In this document: positions 45,904 to 54,007 of the stretch, one piece after another | Numbering within the stretch: position 1 is the stretch's first letter | How the letters are laid out: each line of letters starts with the position of its first letter | From: Halomonas stenophila | GTDB taxonomy: Bacteria > Pseudomonadota > Gammaproteobacteria > Pseudomonadales > Halomonadaceae | Direction of reading: 5' to 3' | DNA: 64,000 nt | Assembly: GCF_014192275.1 (NCBI RefSeq) | Contig: NZ_JACHXR010000003.1 | Span: 1-64,000, forward strand | Translations under genes and position numbers: made by a program | Notes under the pieces: generated by a model | Told to the model about the DNA's origin: nothing | Databases searched by the model: none | The model's input: the letters and a program-made list of their open reading frames with translations, nothing else

Positions 45904-46041
45904 GTCCTTGCCTCCATCGTTGCCCCGAGGCCGGGCCGGTTGCGCTCCCTTGCGACGGATGCGGAACCGGCCCGGCCCTGTTAGAGTCCCAGAGATTCCT
46001 CACACCCATGGCGCCGAGGCGCCGGAGCCCAAGGTTCTTTC

Positions 46042-46740
46042 ATGAAGAGACTGCTGACTACCGCTTCCCTGACGGCCCTGCTGACCGCCGCCCCGCTGGC
46101 CCTGGCCGCCGCCCCCGAGACCGACGATGAGCGACTGGGCTACAGCCTCGGCGTGACCCTCGGCAAGAGCATCCAGCAGGATGTCGAGGACCTGGACATC
46201 GATGCCTTCACCCAGGCCATCCGCGATGTCTTCGAGGGCAACGAGCTGGCCATGAGCGACGAGGAGATGGCCGCCGCCCTGAGCCAGTTCCAGCAGCAGG
46301 CCATGGAGGCCCGCGCCGCCGAGGCCGAGCAGAAGGCCGAGGCCAACAAGGCCGAGGGCCAGGCCTACCTCACCGAGAACGCCGAGCAGGACGGCGTGAC
46401 CGTCACCGACTCCGGCCTGCAGTATCGCGAGCTCGAGTCCGGCGACGGCGCCACGCCCGGCGCCGACGACACCGTCGAGGTCCACTACGAGGGCCAACTG
46501 ATCGACGGCACCGTCTTCGACAGCTCCTACGAGCGCGGCGAGCCGGTCAGCTTCCGGGTCGGCCAGGTCATCGAGGGCTGGCAGGAAGCCCTGCAGCTGA
46601 TGAGCGTGGGCGACACCTGGGAGGTCGTGATCCCCTCCGAGCTGGCCTACGGTGCCCAGGGGCAGGGCCCCATCGGTCCCCACGAGACCCTGGTGTTCAA
46701 GGTCGAGCTCCTCGACGTGACGCCCGCCGACGACGAATAA
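46042..46740 (+). CDS. FKBP-type peptidyl-prolyl isomerase (Mip/FkpA-like)
   Basis: A 232-residue periplasmic or surface foldase. A signal peptide (about 1-23, ending LALAAA) is followed by an N-terminal dimerisation domain with a long Ala/Glu/Gln helix (about 75-115) and a C-terminal FKBP domain. The FKBP core is VEVHYEGQLIDGTVFDSSYERG near residue 147 and VIEGWQEALQLMSVGDTWEV near 173. The layout is that of Mip, FkpA and FklB; the signal peptide points to an exported form. The next gene starts 6 bp after its stop. Confidence 0.92.
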   Translation: MKRLLTTASLTALLTAAPLALAAAPETDDERLGYSLGVTLGKSIQQDVEDLDIDAFTQAIRDVFEGNELAMSDEEMAAALSQFQQQAMEARAAEAEQKAEANKAEGQAYLTENAEQDGVTVTDSGLQYRELESGDGATPGADDTVEVHYEGQLIDGTVFDSSYERGEPVSFRVGQVIEGWQEALQLMSVGDTWEVVIPSELAYGAQGQGPIGPHETLVFKVELLDVTPADDE

Positions 46741-46746
46741 GCGCGG

Positions 46747-47796
46747 ATGAGCGTTACCGCCCTGCTGCTGGCGGCCGGCCTCGGCCTGGGGCTGGCCACC
46801 CCGCTTCAGGCCCAGGAAACGCCGGCCGCGCTGCCCGCCCTGGCCGCCAGCACCGAGGCGACGAGCGTGATCGGCGTCTCCGCCGGTGGCTACATGGCCA
46901 CCCAGCTCGCCGTGGCCTGGCCGTCGCGCTTCAGCGGCCTCGGCGTGGTGGCGGCCGGCCCCTGGGCCTGTGCCCGGGGCGAGCTCGGCCGCGCCCTGGG
47001 CCAGTGCATGTTCACCCGCCTCGGCCCTCCCGACCTGGCGGCCATCCAGGCACGCCACCGCGACTACCTGTCCCGCGACCTGGTCGGTGCCCCCGAGGCA
47101 CTGGCCGACCTGCGCGTCTTCGTCTGGCACGGCGACGCCGACCCAACCGTCGATCCATCCCTGGGCCGGTCCCTGGTCAAGCAGTTCGAGGGCTGGCTGG
47201 CGACACCGGACCGGCAGCTTCGCTTCCGGGAAGGCGAGGGCGCGGCCCATGGCTGGCCGGTCGGCGCCGGGAGCGACGCTCCGACGGACGCCTTGGCGGA
47301 CTGCGGCGAGGGCGGCGGCAGCCACCTGCTGGCCTGCGAGCCGGCCATCGCCGAGGCGGCGCTGACCTGGCTGCACGGCGCGCCGGCGGCCGGCGAGCCG
47401 GGCGAGACCGGCGGCCGGCTGGTGCGCTTCGACCAGTCGGACTTCGCTGCCCGGGGACTCGCCGATAGCGGTTACCTGTTCGTTCCGGCGGGCTGCGAGG
47501 CGGGTGGCTGCGCGCTGACCGTGGCCCTGCACGGCTGCGAGATGAGCGCGGCGGAGGGCGACGAGGCCTTCGTCCGTTACAGCGGCCTGAACCACCGGGC
47601 GGCCGCCGACCGGCGGGTGGTGCTCTACCCCCAGGTGGAGGCGAGCCTCGCCAACCCCAAGGCCTGCTGGGACTGGTGGGGCTACGCCGAGAGCGCCTGG
47701 CAGCTCGACCCGCTGCATGACTCCCGCCGGGGCAGCCAGATCGAGGCCCTGATGGGCATGGTCGACCGGCTGCAGGCCACCCCGGACGCCGACTGA
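46747..47796 (+). CDS. PHB-depolymerase-like esterase with circularly permuted alpha/beta-hydrolase fold
   Basis: A 349-residue exported hydrolase with a signal peptide ending LQA (about residue 22). The nucleophile motif GVSAGG (Ser45) comes first, then Asp about 132 in HGDADPTV and His about 168 in AAHGWPVG. The oxyanion-hole motif ALHGCEMS (about 258) and CWDWWGY come last. In ordinary PHB depolymerases the oxyanion motif precedes the serine, so this is the permuted order known from Penicillium funiculosum depolymerase and type II bacterial enzymes. No linker or polymer-binding domain follows. A polyhydroxybutyrate or oligomer substrate is likely but unproven. Confidence 0.8.
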   Translation: MSVTALLLAAGLGLGLATPLQAQETPAALPALAASTEATSVIGVSAGGYMATQLAVAWPSRFSGLGVVAAGPWACARGELGRALGQCMFTRLGPPDLAAIQARHRDYLSRDLVGAPEALADLRVFVWHGDADPTVDPSLGRSLVKQFEGWLATPDRQLRFREGEGAAHGWPVGAGSDAPTDALADCGEGGGSHLLACEPAIAEAALTWLHGAPAAGEPGETGGRLVRFDQSDFAARGLADSGYLFVPAGCEAGGCALTVALHGCEMSAAEGDEAFVRYSGLNHRAAADRRVVLYPQVEASLANPKACWDWWGYAESAWQLDPLHDSRRGSQIEALMGMVDRLQATPDAD

Positions 47797-47810
47797 CGCC
47801 AGACCGCGGC

Positions 47811-48407
47811 TCAGCCCTCGCCGAGCTCCGCCGCGAGGGCCGCCTGGAGAGGCCCCGGAGTCGGGGAATGCAGGACCCGGCGGTGAATCTCGCCGTCGCG
47901 ATCCACCAGGTACAGCGAGGCGCTGTGGTCGACGGTATAGCCCATGGCCGACTCCGGCGTCTCGACCTTGCGCCACACCACGCCGTAGCGCTCGGCGATC
48001 TCCTCGAGCTGGGCCCGGCTGCCGGTGGCGCCGATGAAGTCCTCGCCGAAGTAGGCCAGGTATTCCTCCAGCCTCGCCAGGGTGTCGCGCTCGGGGTCCA
48101 CGGAGACCATCAGCGGCACCACCCGGTCGCGCCGCTCGGGGGACATCCGCTGGCGCACCTGGCGCACCACGGCCAGGCTCATGGGACAGACGTCCGGGCA
48201 CCAGGTATAGCCGAAGAACACCACCGCCAGCTGGTCGTCCTCCAGCTGGCTCAGGGAGAAGTCGCCCCGGGTCGAGGGCAGCTCGATGGGCCCGCCGGCG
48301 GGCAGGCCCTCGTCACGCCCGACCCATTGCTGGTAGGCCCACAGGCCACCGACCGCCAGCAGCAGGGCGACCCCCGCCCCCATCACGCTTCGCCATCGTC
48401 GTGTCAT
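47811..48407 (-). CDS. SCO1/SenC family copper chaperone
   Basis: A 198-residue protein with one N-terminal membrane anchor (about residues 8-28) and a periplasmic thioredoxin-like domain. The copper ligands are all present: CPDVC at 70-74 and His at about 161 in VDHSASLYL. SCO proteins help insert copper in the CuA site of cytochrome oxidase or keep thiols reduced. Translation is coupled with the gene upstream by a 4-bp overlap. Confidence 0.92.
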   Translation of the reverse strand: MTRRWRSVMGAGVALLLAVGGLWAYQQWVGRDEGLPAGGPIELPSTRGDFSLSQLEDDQLAVVFFGYTWCPDVCPMSLAVVRQVRQRMSPERRDRVVPLMVSVDPERDTLARLEEYLAYFGEDFIGATGSRAQLEEIAERYGVVWRKVETPESAMGYTVDHSASLYLVDRDGEIHRRVLHSPTPGPLQAALAAELGEG

Positions 48408-48913
48408 GTTGCCTTCCTCGTTACCTCGAAGTCGAACCAGCTTCCCAGGCGCCCCCCGGGCGTGTCCACCACCACCCGGGCGCGCCAGCGCATCGCCGCC
48501 TCGCTGCACAGCGCGACCTGCCCATCGCCGCGGAACACCCCACCACCGGCCGCCGCGAGGGAAAAGCGGTGGAGCCCCATGTCCATGTCGCGGCCGACGA
48601 AGGTCACCACCGCGGCCTCGGCCGGCGCTCCCGCCAGCTGCACCTCGAGGGGCAGCACCGTCAGGGCGTGGATGGGCCCCTTGCCGGCGAGGTCCAACGT
48701 CAGCGTGACGCCCTCCCCGAGCTCGGTCCGGCAGGGGCCGGCCTGGAGATCGCAGGGCGTCGATGGCGGTGTCCACTGGACATCGTCACCGTCCAGGGAA
48801 TGCCGCACCAGGTACCCCAGCATCACGCCCAGGGTCAGCAGAGTCGTGACGATCAACAGGCGCAGCAGCGGCGGCCGCGAGGCGGCGCGTCCGGCAGGGG
48901 CGGAAGGGGCCAT
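48404..48913 (-). CDS. Unrecognised single-pass membrane protein coupled to SCO1
   Basis: A 169-residue protein with one N-terminal helix (LLRLLIVTTLLTLGVMLGYLV region, about residues 17-38), then a periplasmic domain rich in beta strands. It has two cysteines as PC-x6-C and VGRDMDMGLHRF, a Met/His pattern that could bind metal. I do not recognise the family; a FixH- or copper-handling-like role is only suggested by the coupled SCO1 gene. ATG at 48913 is the likeliest start although its ribosome site is poor; an ATG at 48967 is possible. Confidence 0.6.
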   Translation of the reverse strand: MAPSAPAGRAASRPPLLRLLIVTTLLTLGVMLGYLVRHSLDGDDVQWTPPSTPCDLQAGPCRTELGEGVTLTLDLAGKGPIHALTVLPLEVQLAGAPAEAAVVTFVGRDMDMGLHRFSLAAAGGGVFRGDGQVALCSEAAMRWRARVVVDTPGGRLGSWFDFEVTRKAT

Positions 48914-49023
48914 GGCGGTGAAGCGACGCCTCCATCGGTGACGGGATAGACTGGATCTTATCAGCATTCGCCCGAGCCGCCGTGTGCACGGATGTCGCAG
49001 GGCCGAGTCGACGAGGAGGCGTC

Positions 49024-49938
49024 ATGGACGGCGTGGCACAGGCCCTGGGGCCATTGTTCTTGTTGATCCTGCTGGGGGCGGTGCTGGCCCGGCTCCAGCA
49101 ACCCGGCGGCGACTTCTGGCCACGCATGGAGCGGCTGATCTACTTCCTGCTGTTTCCCGCCATGCTGGTCGCCACCCTGGCCGAGGCCGATATCCGCCAG
49201 GTCCCGGTGGGCCGGCTCGCCCTGGTGCTGCTCGGGGCCATCGGCGTGCTCGGCCTGTCGCTGTGGTGCCTGCGCCATCGCCTGGGGCTGGCCGCACCGG
49301 CCTTCACCTCGGTCTTCCAGGGGGGGCTGCGGTTCAACACCTATGTGGGCGTGGCCGGGGCCGCGGCCCTGCATGGCCAGGCCGGCGCCACGGTGGCCGC
49401 GGTGGCCGTGGCGCTGATGGTGCCGGTGATCAACGTGCTGTGCGTCGCGGCCTTCATCGCCGCCGGCACCCTGGGAGCGGCCGGGCTCGGGGCCAGTCTC
49501 GCCGCCCTGGCACGCAACCCCCTGATCCTGGCCTGCCTGGCCGGCATCGCCCTCAACCTCTCCGGCATCGGGCTGCCCGGCTGGAGCCAGGACACGGTGG
49601 CCCTGCTGGGCCGGGCGGCACTGCCCCTTGGCCTGGTGGCGGTCGGCGTCGCCCTGCGTCCCCCGGCCCTGCTGCGCCGTGACCGGGGCGTCTGGGCCGC
49701 CAACCTGGTCAAGCTGGTGCTGATGCCCGCGGCGGTGCTGGCCCTGGCGCTGCTGCTCGGCCTCGACCCCGTGAGCCGCGACGTGGCCCTGCTGTTCGCC
49801 GCCCTGCCCACCGCCACCTCGGCCTATATCCTGGCTCGCCAGCTGGGCGGCGATGCCGAGCTCATGGCCGCCCTGATCACCGGCCAGACCCTGCTCGCCA
49901 TGCTCACCCTGCCGCTCTGGCTGCGCCTCGCCGGCTAG
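49024..49938 (+). CDS. AEC (auxin efflux carrier) family permease
   Basis: A 304-residue inner-membrane protein with ten predicted helices in two halves of five, as in the AEC/BART transporters. FLLFPAMLVATLAEADI near residue 41, FQGGLRFNTYVGVAGAAALHG near 98 and FAALPTATSAYILARQLGGDA near 259 are the family pattern. Bacterial members export or import small organic acids or amino acids; the substrate here is unknown. The ATG at 49024 follows GAGGAGG. Confidence 0.88.
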   Translation: MDGVAQALGPLFLLILLGAVLARLQQPGGDFWPRMERLIYFLLFPAMLVATLAEADIRQVPVGRLALVLLGAIGVLGLSLWCLRHRLGLAAPAFTSVFQGGLRFNTYVGVAGAAALHGQAGATVAAVAVALMVPVINVLCVAAFIAAGTLGAAGLGASLAALARNPLILACLAGIALNLSGIGLPGWSQDTVALLGRAALPLGLVAVGVALRPPALLRRDRGVWAANLVKLVLMPAAVLALALLLGLDPVSRDVALLFAALPTATSAYILARQLGGDAELMAALITGQTLLAMLTLPLWLRLAG

Positions 49939-49950
49939 GCAAATAAAAAA

Positions 49951-49992
49951 AGTTCTCGTTTACATTGACGAGATGAATGAGAACGATTTACT
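49951..49992 (+). promoter_or_regulatory. Fur-like box overlapping a sigma70 promoter
   Basis: TTGACG (49965-49970), a 16-bp spacer and TTTACT (49987-49992) form a good promoter. Overlapping the -10 is AATGAGAACGATTTACT (from 49976), close to the Fur consensus AATGAGAATnATTnTCATT. A second half, the reverse complement of ACGAGAAC, lies at 49952-49959. Repression by Fur with iron is therefore likely. The promoter fires into the gap before the LysR gene. Confidence 0.6.
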
Positions 49993-49999
49993 CTTGGCC

Positions 50000-50117
50000 C
50001 ATGGCGTTGATGAGGCGCCATCCCGGTCAGGGAGCTTGCCAGCCCCTGGTCCCGGTTTCTCCTCCTCATTGCTAGTCACGGTCTTTTCGCCGCCCTCCGG
50101 GGCGGCTTCTTTTTTCC
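50000..50117 (+). ncRNA. Candidate small RNA of about 118 nt, probably iron-regulated
   Basis: Between the promoter above and an intrinsic terminator there is no complete reading frame; the only frame, from 49973, runs through the terminator without a stop. The RNA would fold into ATGGCG/CGCCAT, then CAGGG/CCCTG, then an unpaired pyrimidine-rich stretch TTTCTCCTCCTCATTGC, then the terminator. That stretch is complementary to Shine-Dalgarno plus start regions. The layout resembles RyhB/PrrF-type RNAs, but I see no sequence match to them. The 3' end of AEC mRNA is an alternative reading. Confidence 0.5.
50089..50117 (+). terminator. Intrinsic terminator of the candidate small RNA
   Basis: GCCGCCC, the loop TCCG, then GGGCGGC and TTCTTTTTTCC: a 7-bp GC stem with a U tract on the plus strand. 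It ends right at the stop of the convergent LysR gene. On the minus strand the hairpin is not followed by T residues. Confidence 0.8.
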
Positions 50118-51002
50118 TCACTCGCGCCGCCCCAGGCGCTGCTTCAGCAACTCGCCCAGTGCCTCCACCGCCGGCCAGGAGGCGGCGGCCACCTGGCGCC
50201 CGTAATGCAGCTGGGCCTCGCAGGCCGGCAGCGGCGGCAGGCCCTCGGCCTCGCCCATCTCGCGCATGGCCGGCGTCAGCCGGTCCCGCTCGAGGATGCT
50301 CACGGCCAGCCCGGCCTCCACGGCCGTTTCCAGCGCATGAATGCTGGTGCTGGTGAACACCGCATGCCAGGAGTGACCGATGGCCTCCAGGGCCTCGACC
50401 CCCAGGTGACGATAGGGGCAGTCCACCGGGTGCAGGGCCAGCGGCAAGGGCTGATCCGGCGCCAGGACCAGCTCCCGGGCCCCCGCCCAGACCGGCGTGG
50501 TGCGCCACAGCGGCTCCCCCCCGACCAGCCGGTGCGGGCGATCCAGGGCCACGATCAGCGACAGCTCGCCCCGCTTCAGCCGCCTCGCCAGGTCGCCGCT
50601 GGTGGCGGTCACCGCCTCCAGCACCACGTCCGGGTGGCGGGCCAGGAAGTCCGGCAGCAGCCGTCCCACCAGTCGGCTGGCATAGTCCTCCGGCAGGCCG
50701 AAGCGCACCCGGCCACTCAGGCCCCGGCCACTGATCCGGGCCACCAGGCCATCATGGTGGCGCAGCAACTCCCGGGCCTCGCCGAGCAGCGTCTCGCCGG
50801 CGGCCGTGGGCGTCATGCCGCGGGGCCCACGCAGCAGCAGGCGCGTACCCAGCCGCGCCTCGAGCCGCTTGATCTGCATGCTCAGGGCGCTGACCGTGCG
50901 ATGGCGCTGCTCGGCGGCCGCGGCCAGGGAGCCGAGGCGTGCCACCACGACGAAACTGCGCAGGGCCTCCAGGTCCAGGGTTTCCGAGGAGACTTCAGCC
51001 AT
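50118..51002 (-). CDS. LysR-family transcriptional regulator
   Basis: A 294-residue regulator. The N-terminal winged helix-turn-helix (about residues 10-68) has FVVVARLGSLAAAAEQRHRT and SALSMQIKRLEARLGTRLL; the effector-binding domain follows from about 90. I chose the ATG at 51002 after GGGAG; the longer frame from 51074 adds non-conserved residues. It is divergent from the EamA exporter gene 93 bp away, the classic layout for a LysR regulator and its target. The effector is unknown. Confidence 0.9.
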   Translation of the reverse strand: MAEVSSETLDLEALRSFVVVARLGSLAAAAEQRHRTVSALSMQIKRLEARLGTRLLLRGPRGMTPTAAGETLLGEARELLRHHDGLVARISGRGLSGRVRFGLPEDYASRLVGRLLPDFLARHPDVVLEAVTATSGDLARRLKRGELSLIVALDRPHRLVGGEPLWRTTPVWAGARELVLAPDQPLPLALHPVDCPYRHLGVEALEAIGHSWHAVFTSTSIHALETAVEAGLAVSILERDRLTPAMREMGEAEGLPPLPACEAQLHYGRQVAAASWPAVEALGELLKQRLGRRE

Positions 51003-51095
51003 ATTGAACGCTCCCTGAAAAAAGTTTCGATTCCCGAAAGACTCTAGGCGCCCCAGACTCCCCCCACAAGTCACCGGATGTCTCGGGGAGGTCCC

Positions 51096-52154
51096 ATGCG
51101 CGCCTTCACACGCCTGTCGCTAACCGGCTGGCCACGGCCGGGCGCCGCGCCACTGGGCGGCCTCGCCGTGGCCGTCGGCTTCGTGCTGTGCTGGAGCAGC
51201 GGCTTCGTGGGCAGCCGCCTGGCCGTGGCCGTCGACACGCCGGTCCTGTCGCTCTATGCCTGGCGCTTCGCGCTGGCCACCCTGCTGGCGGGACTCTGGT
51301 GGGCCCTGCGGGCCACCCGGCGCCGGGGACCGGGCCTGTCACCCCGCGCCCTGGCCCGCGAGGCCCTGGTCGGCAGCCTGACGGTGGGCGCCTACCTGCT
51401 GGCCATGCTGCTGGCGGTCGAGGCCGGCGTCAGCGCCGGCGTGGCGGCCCTGATCGGCGCCCTGCAACCCCTGGCGGCCACCACCCTGGCCGGCTGGTGG
51501 CTGGGCGAGCGCACGCGTCCGGCCCAGTGGCTGGGCATGTCGGTGGCGACCCTGGGGGCCGGACTGAGCGTGCTGGATGACCTGCAGGGCGTGGGCGGTG
51601 CGCCGGCCTGGGCCTACGGCCTGCCACTGCTGGCGGTGGCGGCCGTGACCCTGGGCAGCGTGCTGGGCGTCCGGCGACCGGCGGCCCTGGGGATGGAGGC
51701 GCGGCTGACCAGCCAGTTGGGGGCGGCGACGGTGGTGTTCTGGCTGGCCGCCGTGGCGCGTCAGGGAGACTGGCCGGCGCCGCCGCCCCTCACCCCGGAC
51801 ACGCTGACGGCGCTGGCCTGGCTGATCCTGCTCGCCACCTTCGGCGGCTACGGCTTCTTCATCGAGAGCCTGCGCCGCTTCGGGGTGAGCCACAGCGCCG
51901 CGCTGGTCGCCCTGACACCGGCGGTGACCCTGGGCTGGACGGCCCTGCTGTTCGGGGAGCTGCCGGGCGGGCTCGGCGCCGCCGGCATGGGCCTGGGACT
52001 GCTCGGCGCCGGGGCCGCCCTGGTCGCGGGTCGGCGCCGGGGGCGCGGGGCCAGCGGCCACGCCGGCACCGGAAGCCCGCTCAGTCGACGCGGCGGTAGA
52101 TCAGATCCCAGACCCCGTGCCCCAGCCGCTCGCCGCGGGCCTCGAACTTGGTGA
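51096..52154 (+). CDS. EamA/DMT-family exporter
   Basis: A 352-residue inner-membrane protein with ten helices in two EamA repeats (about residues 25-150 and 165-310). [16 protein letters not shown] near residue 35 and [21 protein letters not shown] near 127 are typical of drug/metabolite transporters such as RhtA/YedA. The substrate is unknown. The C-terminal 40 residues are Arg/Gly-rich and the last 74 bp overlap trmB on the other strand. GGGGAGG precedes the ATG. Confidence 0.87.
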
Positions 52155-52827
52155 GGGGACGAAAGGCAGGACGCGGCACGTAGGGGGCGGTCTCCGGCGA
52201 GGCGGTGTTGGCATAGCCCAGGGCCTCGTCCATGACCCCGGCCATCCACTCGGCGTAGGCCTCCCAGTCGGTGGCCATGTGCAGGGTGCCGCCGGGCTTG
52301 AGCCGGGTGCGCACCAGGACGACGAAGGCCGGCTGGACGATGCGCCGCTTGTGGTGCTTCTTCTTCGGCCAGGGATCGGGGAAGAACAGCTGCAGGGTAT
52401 CGAGGCTGGCCTCGGGCAGGCACTGCTCGAGCACCGCCAGGGCGTCCTCGCGATAGACGCGCAGGTTGGTCAGGCCGCGCTTGTCGGCCTCGTCGAGCAG
52501 CTTGCCGACCCCGGGAGCGTGCACCTCGATGCCGATGAAGTCGGTGTCGGGATGGGTCTCGGCCTGCTCGATCAGCGAGGCGCCCATGCCGAAGCCGATC
52601 TCCACCACCCGGGGAGCCTGGCGGCCGAAGAGGGCCTCGAGGTCCTGGCGGCCGTCGGCGAGCGTCAGCCCCAGCCGCGGCCAGACCTCCTCGAGGCCCC
52701 GGGTCTGGGCGGCGGTCATGCGCCCGGCGCGCAGCACATAGCTCTTGATGCCCCGGCGGTGCAGCGAGGCGTCGGGACCTTCCGGGCCGGTGGTCGAGGC
52801 GGTGTCGTCGTGGTGCGGTGCGTTCAT
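52081..52827 (-). CDS. trmB: tRNA (guanine-N7-)-methyltransferase
   Basis: A 248-residue SAM-dependent enzyme that makes m7G46 in the variable loop of tRNAs. [16 protein letters not shown] near residue 73 is the SAM site, [13 protein letters not shown] near 97 the acidic post, and [16 protein letters not shown] near 148 the TrmB signature that touches tRNA. It follows thiG by 38 bp, an order seen in pseudomonads, and converges on the EamA gene with a 74-bp overlap. Confidence 0.96.
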
Positions 52828-52865
52828 GCGCGGCGTCGGATCTCGTGGCTCAGGGGGTGAAGGCG

Positions 52866-53663
52866 TCAGGCGTTGATGCGGCCGGCCAGCGGCGAGGACG
52901 GGTCGGCGCTCTGGCGGCGCGGCATGCGCCCGGCCAGGAAGGCCTCGCGGCCGGCCTGGACGGCCTGCTTCATGGCGCTGGCCATCAACAGCGGCTGCCG
53001 GGCGTGGGCGATGGCGGAGTTCATCAGCACGCCGTCGCAGCCCAGCTCCATGGCCAAGGCCGCCTCGGAGGCGGTGCCGATGCCGGCATCCACCAGCACC
53101 GGCACGCCGGCCCGCTCGACGATCAGGCGAAGGTTGTAGGGGTTCTGGATGCCGTGGCCGGAGCCGATCAGCGAGCCCAGCGGCATCACGGCGCAACAGC
53201 CCAGGCGCTCCAGCTCGCGGGCGACGATGGGATCGTCGCTGGTGTAGACCATCACGTCGAAGCCGTCGTCGATCAGCGTCTCGGCGGCGGCCAGGGTCTC
53301 CACCACGTTGGGATAGAGGGTGGTGTCGTCGCCCAGCACCTCGAGCTTGACCAGGTTGTGGCCGTCGAGGAGCTCGCGGGCCAGCCGGCAGGTCCGCACC
53401 GCATCCTTGGCGGTATAGCAGCCCGCGGTGTTGGGCAGCAGGGTGTAGCGCTCCGGCGAGACGACGTCGAGCAGGTTCGGCGCCGCGGCGTCCTGCCCCA
53501 GATTGGTGCGCCGCACCGCGAAGGTCACCACCTCGGCACCGCTGGCGGCGATGGCCTCGCCGGTCTCGTCGAAGTCGCGGTACTTGCCGGTGCCCACCAG
53601 CAGGCGCGAGGTGAATTCGCGGCCGGCGATGCGCAACGGCGCGTCCTGAAAGATGTCGGTCAT
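52866..53663 (-). CDS. thiG: Thiazole synthase
   Basis: A 265-residue TIM-barrel enzyme that builds the thiazole phosphate of thiamine from deoxyxylulose 5-phosphate, dehydroglycine and the ThiS thiocarboxylate. The catalytic Lys sits in [11 protein letters not shown] near residue 104; [18 protein letters not shown] near 163 and [21 protein letters not shown] near 190 form the phosphate site. I chose the ATG at 53663. It lies 46 bp after thiS, its sulfur-carrier partner. Confidence 0.96.
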
Positions 53664-53709
53664 GGTTGTCGTGCTCCTGTGTGCGGGTTCGCGGGACCGC
53701 CTCGGCGCG

Positions 53710-53910
53710 TCAGCCGCCACCGATGGCGTGGACGATCTCGACCCGGTCCCCCTCGGCCAGGCGCGTCTCGGCGTGGACGCTCCTGGGCACGATCTCCTCG
53801 TTGACCTCCACGGCGATGCGGCGGCCGGTCAGGCCGAGGGACTCGACCAGCCGGGCCACCGAGGCATCGGCCTCCAGGGTGCGGGCCTCGCCATTGAGCT
53901 GGATCTGCAT
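53710..53910 (-). CDS. thiS: ThiS sulfur-carrier protein
   Basis: A 66-residue ubiquitin-fold protein ending in Gly-Gly (HAIGGG), which is adenylated and thiocarboxylated to donate sulfur for thiazole. The N-terminal [12 protein letters not shown] and the NEEIVPRS loop near residue 37 are the ThiS pattern. First gene of thiS-thiG-trmB. I find no TPP riboswitch in the 97 bp upstream. Confidence 0.94.
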
Positions 53911-54007
53911 GGCATCCTCTCCGGGGCTGCGGATTCGCGGGCCCATATTGTAGCGCCTCAGGGCCGGGCCGGGTACGGTAACCACGAGACGATCGCAGGA
54001 GACCGAG

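Follow-up and report, generated by a model that had tools for sequence, protein, structure and literature searches.

Iron-sparing small RNAs of the PrrF line include ArrF of Azotobacter vinelandii, which acts on sodB. According to the available text of PMC2851614, the PrrF RNAs of P. aeruginosa are 116 and 114 nt long and sdhCDAB is among the genes that they affect; tandem PrrF copies have been reported for the same species (PMC4211561, available text). In the portion of it at hand, this 2014 review treats PrrF for Pseudomonas species only, and states that PrrF and RyhB have no shared sequence homology (PMC4211561). BrrF of Burkholderia cenocepacia is a low-iron RNA with predicted pairing to sdhC and sodB. 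In the accessible part of its report (PMC7377471) it is described as having no Fur box directly upstream and as probably co-expressed with hemP, and as showing, per its authors, no sequence similarity to known Fur-regulated RNAs. In the literature searched, outside which most subscription papers lie, we recognised no account of a PrrF-type RNA native to Halomonas, and PrrF together with Halomonadaceae returned nothing there.

The locus considered here lies in a 64,000-nucleotide stretch of the Halomonas stenophila genome (hereafter the window). It follows a gene for an AEC-type permease (PF03547), which ends at 49938, and is faced from the other side by a convergent LysR-type gene on the minus strand (50118-51002, its start being taken as the ATG at 51002). 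Judged by sequence, the segment 49952-50115 comprises a sigma70-like promoter, a Fur-like box and a putative RNA gene of about 115 nt (Table 1). An earlier sequence-only reading had placed a box, a promoter and a terminator between these two genes, and we found them there at the coordinates it gave; its feature list was right in its positions and lacked the upstream inverted Fur-like arm.

Table 1. Features of the predicted RNA gene and its promoter region, in window coordinates.
Feature	Position	Strand	Basis and remarks
Upstream inverted Fur-like arm GTTCTCGTTTAC	49952..49963	+	Candidate, from sequence only; inverted repeat seen
-35 hexamer TTGACG	49965..49970	+	Sequence; TTGAC in most relatives printed
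Fur-like box AATGAGAACGATTTACT, overlapping spacer and -10	49976..49992	+	Sequence; kept in copies
-10 hexamer TACTCT, weak (3/6 consensus)	49989..49994	+	Sequence; 18-bp spacer
Predicted small RNA, ~115 nt	50000..50115	+	Start inferred from the -10; model R2 and Rfam PrrF model
5′ hairpin, stem 50001-50006 / 50016-50021, loop UUGAUGAGG 50007-50015	50001..50021	+	Covariation
Second stem-loop, variable	50026..50055	+	Individual folds
Conserved core UUUCUCCUCCUCAUUGCUAGUCACGGUC, predicted pairing region	50056..50083	+	Invariant or nearly invariant columns in alignments A2 and A3
Segment complementary to the sdhC start (12/13 positions)	50069..50081	+	Sequence
Intrinsic terminator, stem 50089-50106 and U tract	50089..50115	+	Terminator scan; seen in relatives

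The Fur-like box AATGAGAACGATTTACT has a single occurrence in the window, at 49976-49992, even when 3 mismatches are allowed (chance expectation 0.00), and its 13-mer AATGAGAAYSRTT has just two sites in the entire genome of 4.34 Mb, the backward control giving none. The second site (L354:1501-1513, or G000:C14:99393-99405) is found some 120-160 bp before the gene of a SUF-system regulator (TIGR02944, 151.5 bits versus a cut-off of 110.65), which is followed by sufB, sufD and sufS (TIGR01980, TIGR01981 and TIGR01979, all over their cut-offs). Fur-mediated iron control of suf genes is known from E. coli. Among 155 distinct copies of the RNA gene, chosen by their Halomonas-type core from the gathered loci, 145 match the box at 11 or more of its 14 bases, versus 13 of 1200 base shuffles (made from 60 copies), and 10 have fewer; these copies are related to each other and therefore do not count as 155 independent witnesses. 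The claim that a Fur-like box overlaps the -10 was borne out, and by its sequence the segment 49976-49992 is a putative Fur box in the promoter, as in the PrrF lineage. The best match to the upstream arm reaches at least 8 of 11 bases in 148 of the 155 copies, a raw count without shuffle comparison. As the mirror of this arm lies within the downstream box, the -35 is flanked by two arms. The arm is present in the copies of the family and not evident in the Pseudomonas-type copies printed, and the inverted repeat spans 49952-49988.

The promoter had been called a good sigma70 promoter. With a -10 of 3/6 consensus, and with a strict promoter scan that accepted no sigma70 site and did not pass TACTCT, the word "good" was an overstatement. 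Some relatives have better -10 hexamers, for example TACATT.

Could an RNA descended from PrrF answer another signal, its box being read by another regulator or by Fur in another mode? A motif search over 47% of the genome (2.05 Mb) turned up no fur gene, and three genomes hold copies which keep the core and terminator without the downstream box. In G024 this is the single match, which retains the upstream arm, and in G022 and G026 it is a second copy elsewhere in the genome (L041:294-443 and L040:342-491, respectively). However, the occurrence of the same 13-mer before the SUF regulator and the suf genes, the retention of the box across the copies and, from the available text of PMC2851614, the repression of Pseudomonas PrrF by Fur all point away from another signal, which we consider improbable.

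The segment 49985-50125 folds better than its shuffles (z -2.66), of which 4 in 200 were equally good. The build predicted for the RNA from the sequence alone, with two stem-loops, an open pyrimidine-rich core and a terminator with its U tract, is what we recovered, the second stem-loop coming from individual folds and the terminator downstream from a stem at 50089-50106 with a T tract. The 5′ hairpin shows covariation (columns 4-10 with 20-26 of alignment A3): 88.1% of the cells are paired, and both sides have changed in 6 of the 7 pairs. On four of five measures none of 500 shuffles scored as high, and the hairpin also stood above its slid versions; on the fifth measure, further pair types, it was not above shuffles (205 of 500 as high).

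It had also been stated that no complete reading frame lies between promoter and terminator. Strictly this is not so, given a 32-aa ORF at 49977-50075 and longer overlapping frames, but the non-coding look of the segment stands. A short coding gene of 21-32 aa could make use of this ORF, or of the ATG in the hairpin loop with the TAG in the core. Counted from the loop ATG in the 122 copies where anchoring worked, however, the frame is anywhere between 3 and 44 codons long, most commonly 39 (49 copies), 21 (21 copies) or 6 (15 copies), and one-base indels occur even among near relatives. Since its length is not kept, this frame does not look coding, and the probability that we give to a coding gene is next to negligible.

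The element is widespread in the genus and family. BLASTN with 49935-50120 gave a match in 35 of 58 genomes: besides the own genome these are 34 of the other 36 in the genus, the two misses being genomes 79% and 85% complete; in the 21 genomes of other families there was none. Model R1 found it in 214 of 250 genomes of the family, belonging to 17 of 24 genera, and in 9 of 293 genomes of the order, all within the host's family; the base pairs of R1 were placed two columns off (31.7% paired), so that these counts come chiefly from a sequence search and weak matches may be missed. Model R2, with correct pairs and made from Halomonas RNAs without promoter or terminator, was run on the already gathered loci only. 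An exact 19-base piece of the core occurs in at least 118 stretches in named genomes, and among the 80 matches listed all are named Halomonas, Vreelandella, Billgrantia or Halovibrio. Close relatives had been proposed as the place to look for a loss of box and terminator. The opposite was found: both are kept, the box in the 145 copies counted above and the terminator in relatives.

The arrangement of the copies bears on the autonomy of the RNA. With a promoter region that starts only 13 bp past the permease stop, the segment might be a 3′ UTR or an attenuator of the upstream AEC permease and not an independent RNA. But the segment comes with a conserved promoter and box of its own, and tandem copies were found in G029, G033 and G035, with a spacing of about 276 bp in G029 and about 354 bp in G033 that leaves no room for a permease gene. 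Moreover, the further copies of G022 and G026 lie elsewhere in their genomes. We therefore judge a permease 3′ UTR or attenuator very unlikely, and retain an independent RNA gene. R1 gave 5 matches in another genome, G478, the three listed ones lying within 360 bases. Five tandem PrrF-like copies were seen in a genome from another family of the order (L300, G294:C3:1547549-1548839), and L030 shows past position 1622 (minus strand) apparent decayed core/terminator repeats 3′ of an intact copy, perhaps remnants of tandem copies.

How does this RNA relate to PrrF? The Rfam PrrF model (RF00444) matches the window copy over the whole element (49965-50115) at a score of 22.4 bits (301 bases searched, E 0.09), and a direct scan of 12 loci gave the orthologues L013, L247, L246 and L038 scores of 49.0, 47.3, 43.1 and 35.6 bits, respectively. 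The gathering cut-off of 90 bits was thus missed by the window copy and by the best orthologue tested, so we speak of a homologue and do not call it a member of RF00444; no Rfam family is over its cut-off in the window. In the order the same model matches 46 of 293 genomes, and 12 of them are over the cut-off, all in one family (f21) that is taken to be Pseudomonadaceae, with no match in 14 controls. Below the cut-off are other genera of the host's family, with 51-65 bits, and one same-genus orthologue with 35.6 bits. A search of the own genome with the PrrF model gave no match, the control genomes being equally silent, which makes it uninformative on absence. RyhB (RF00057) gave no match in 46000-54000 up to E 10, nor in 49900-50200.

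The link to Pseudomonas is made by intermediates. Three sister-genus loci that adjoin the same permease score 51-61 bits with the PrrF model, and R1, like R2 made solely from Halomonas RNAs with promoter and terminator left off, matches the same three, L294, L295 and L296. R2 gives them 48.6, 45.1 and 39.3 bits, and L297-L299 26-28 bits. The matches of R2 to Pseudomonas-type copies are weak, the best being L313 (18.5 bits, E 0.0016), with L305 at 16.4 bits; in the window it matches 49999-50086 with 96.3 bits, a score to be read knowing that the window sequence is itself in the model. The permease of the window shares 79%, 72%, 75% and 79% identity with its counterparts beside L294, L295, L296 and L246, respectively, and the LysR protein of the window is 68% identical to that of L294 and 56% to that of L295; L297 has different neighbour genes. 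Reciprocal model matches and shared neighbours argue for homology to PrrF via these intermediates, and on this comparison of sequences we regard the locus as sharing common descent with Pseudomonas prrF. The sequence-only reading had likened the RNA to PrrF and RyhB by its build; an iron-sparing RNA of this type is supported, the models matching both ways and the relation to PrrF being one of homology and not of build alone. The suggestion of an undescribed regulator does not hold in the sense of a new kind.

In its complementarity to iron-protein mRNAs, and it is complementarity that we describe here, the core resembles the PrrF lineage. Two classic targets, sdhC and sodB, had been picked beforehand, and the predicted main target, also the best supported, is sdhC. 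The 13-mer CCGTGANTAGCAA, a pattern written after the sdhC match had been noticed, has just two sites in the own genome: one is in the RNA gene, on the reverse strand, and the other spans the GTG start codon of sdhC (C1:129247-129259), a gene whose identity is backed by model TIGR02970. All 8 genomes searched carry it at both places, and the backward control has 1 site in the 8 genomes; beyond these, G022 has a site in its second RNA copy, and G009 has one at a locus (L292) that is neither the RNA nor sdhC. Codons 1-6 of sdhC do not differ, even at third positions, among 22 of 22 genomes of the genus; further on, codons 13 and 19 are likewise fixed, and variation is seen at 7-12 and 14-18. Other families largely share this sdhC start, so its conservation need not stem from the RNA, and other constraints may contribute. 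Coevolution of the core with the sdhC site was considered and set aside on the same ground.

Among 1394 gene starts called by script from 1.65 Mb of the own genome, sdhC ranks 28th when the whole core is scored and 1st when the anti-Shine-Dalgarno part is left out of it. Plain duplex energy, by which sdhC was 132nd and sodB 67th of 402 starts, was dropped as a target test: the duplexes ran into long bulges, and in a genome this rich in GC most Shine-Dalgarno sequences pair with the CU-rich core. As the score free of the anti-Shine-Dalgarno part was adopted after that result, the 1st place of sdhC is a rank on a post hoc score.

The own Fe-SOD gene (338.5 bits with the [Fe] model, just below the cut-off of 348) ranks 613th of 1394 with the core minus its anti-Shine-Dalgarno part and 189th with the whole core, and the latter rank means that sodB is not distinctive in the own genome. 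Among 53 SOD loci of relatives, 21 passed the Fe-type motif, and their leaders were scored with the core of the window versus 402 own-genome starts. The leaders L195 and L198 are above all 402 of these background starts, and L189, L192 and L194 are equalled or exceeded by 3, 11 and 6 of them, respectively; the rest do not stand out, as with L206 (95) and L213 (245). As far as complementarity goes, Fe-SOD pairing is strong in some relatives and unremarkable in the own genome. The highest complementarity scores that we found belong to the Fe-SOD leaders of G022 and G026.

Other iron proteins stand high on the whole-core score, the top 20 of 1394 including a bacterial globin, HiPIP, CcoG, NadA and the NuoI of the window. 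Complex I had been proposed as a possible target, and nuoI finds its place on this one score; the best-supported target is sdhC instead. As these proteins were spotted by eye, a count of iron motifs is the fairer test (all p values being uncorrected for multiple tests). The top 100 contains 5 proteins with such motifs where 1.3 are expected (p 0.007), and 12 shuffled cores put 0-4 there; the narrower cuts hold 2 each, at p 0.03 for the top 20 and p 0.13 for the top 50. The rank test places proteins with a CxxCH motif high (p 0.001), but not those with Fer4 (p 0.16) or radical-SAM-like motifs (p 0.93); for Fer4 taken singly, as for the top 50, the enrichment is weak. This enrichment gives modest support to the targeting of iron proteins.

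Taken with its descent, these features make it very probable that the RNA is a trans-acting, iron-sparing small RNA of the PrrF lineage. When iron is present, Fur would occupy the promoter-overlapping box and silence the RNA gene; when iron is scarce, the RNA of about 115 nt would be made. Its open core, probably with Hfq (an hfq gene is encoded, E 1.1e-28), would pair across the sdhC start codon, and, at least in some species, the CUCCUC part of the core may pair with mRNAs for Fe-SOD and other iron proteins at their ribosome-binding sites. Such pairing would block translation and spare iron. Transcription, Fur binding, iron response, Hfq dependence and target repression are steps that we infer by analogy with known systems.

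The 5′ loop suggests a further idea. UUGAUGAG or a close variant was found in the searched stretch of 121 of the 155 copies, and UUUGAUGAG is the usual loop form in named Vreelandella copies. All 9 nt of the Halomonas loop UUGAUGAGG are antisense to CCUCAUCAA in the sister-genus core, and the loop pairs partly with the own core, CCUCAUUG. A long-range fold between loop and core is the predicted minimum for many sequences. For 122 of the 155 copies that could be anchored (one of them at a box-like string; 33 were dropped, their loop being outside the stretch or different), the loop adds a median stability of 3.3 kcal/mol versus 1.6 for random loops. Random loops did as well in a median of 12% of cases, and in at most 5% for 28 of the 122 copies. 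These modelled energies lean modestly towards locking of the core by the loop. It could be imagined that in the Halomonas/Vreelandella branch PrrF has become a self-locking RNA, which would alternate between an open state and a locked one that hides both target-binding segments, an idea that we put forward as speculative and rather unlikely to hold. In G022 and G026 the usual 5′ loop is gone from the copy with the box, and the second, box-less copy keeps most of it, hinting at a division of labour.

These results extend the PrrF line across the Halomonas family and, by the Rfam model, to 46 of the 293 genomes of the order, with scores mostly below the cut-off. Halomonas is a bioplastic chassis, and it gains a testable candidate for an iron-sparing regulator. 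According to the available text of reviews, the PrrF1 scaffold of P. aeruginosa has been combined with P. aeruginosa Hfq as an engineered RNA tool in H. bluephagenesis. If H. bluephagenesis has a native relative of the RNA described here, cross-talk with the PrrF1-scaffold tool will have to be considered.

In conclusion, the closest described systems include PrrF1 and PrrF2 of Pseudomonas. The locus shares with them the TTGAC -35 followed by a Fur box, the 5′ hairpin and the terminator, a core of the form CUCCUCAU...GCUA.UCACGGU, the length, tandem copies in some species and sdh among the targets (here predicted). It differs from them in its core, which reads CCUCAUUGCUAGUCACGG in Halomonas and CCUCAUCAGGCUAAUCACGG in PrrF, in its 5′ loop, in the additional upstream inverted Fur-like arm and in a score far below the Rfam cut-off. 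ArrF is likened here by its general description. With BrrF the RNA has in common the predicted pairing to sdhC and sodB, but BrrF is without a Fur box directly upstream. Finally, RyhB of enterobacteria (RF00057) is alike in action, being Fur-regulated and lowering the expression of sdh and sodB (in part from the available text of PMC7377471, in part general background).
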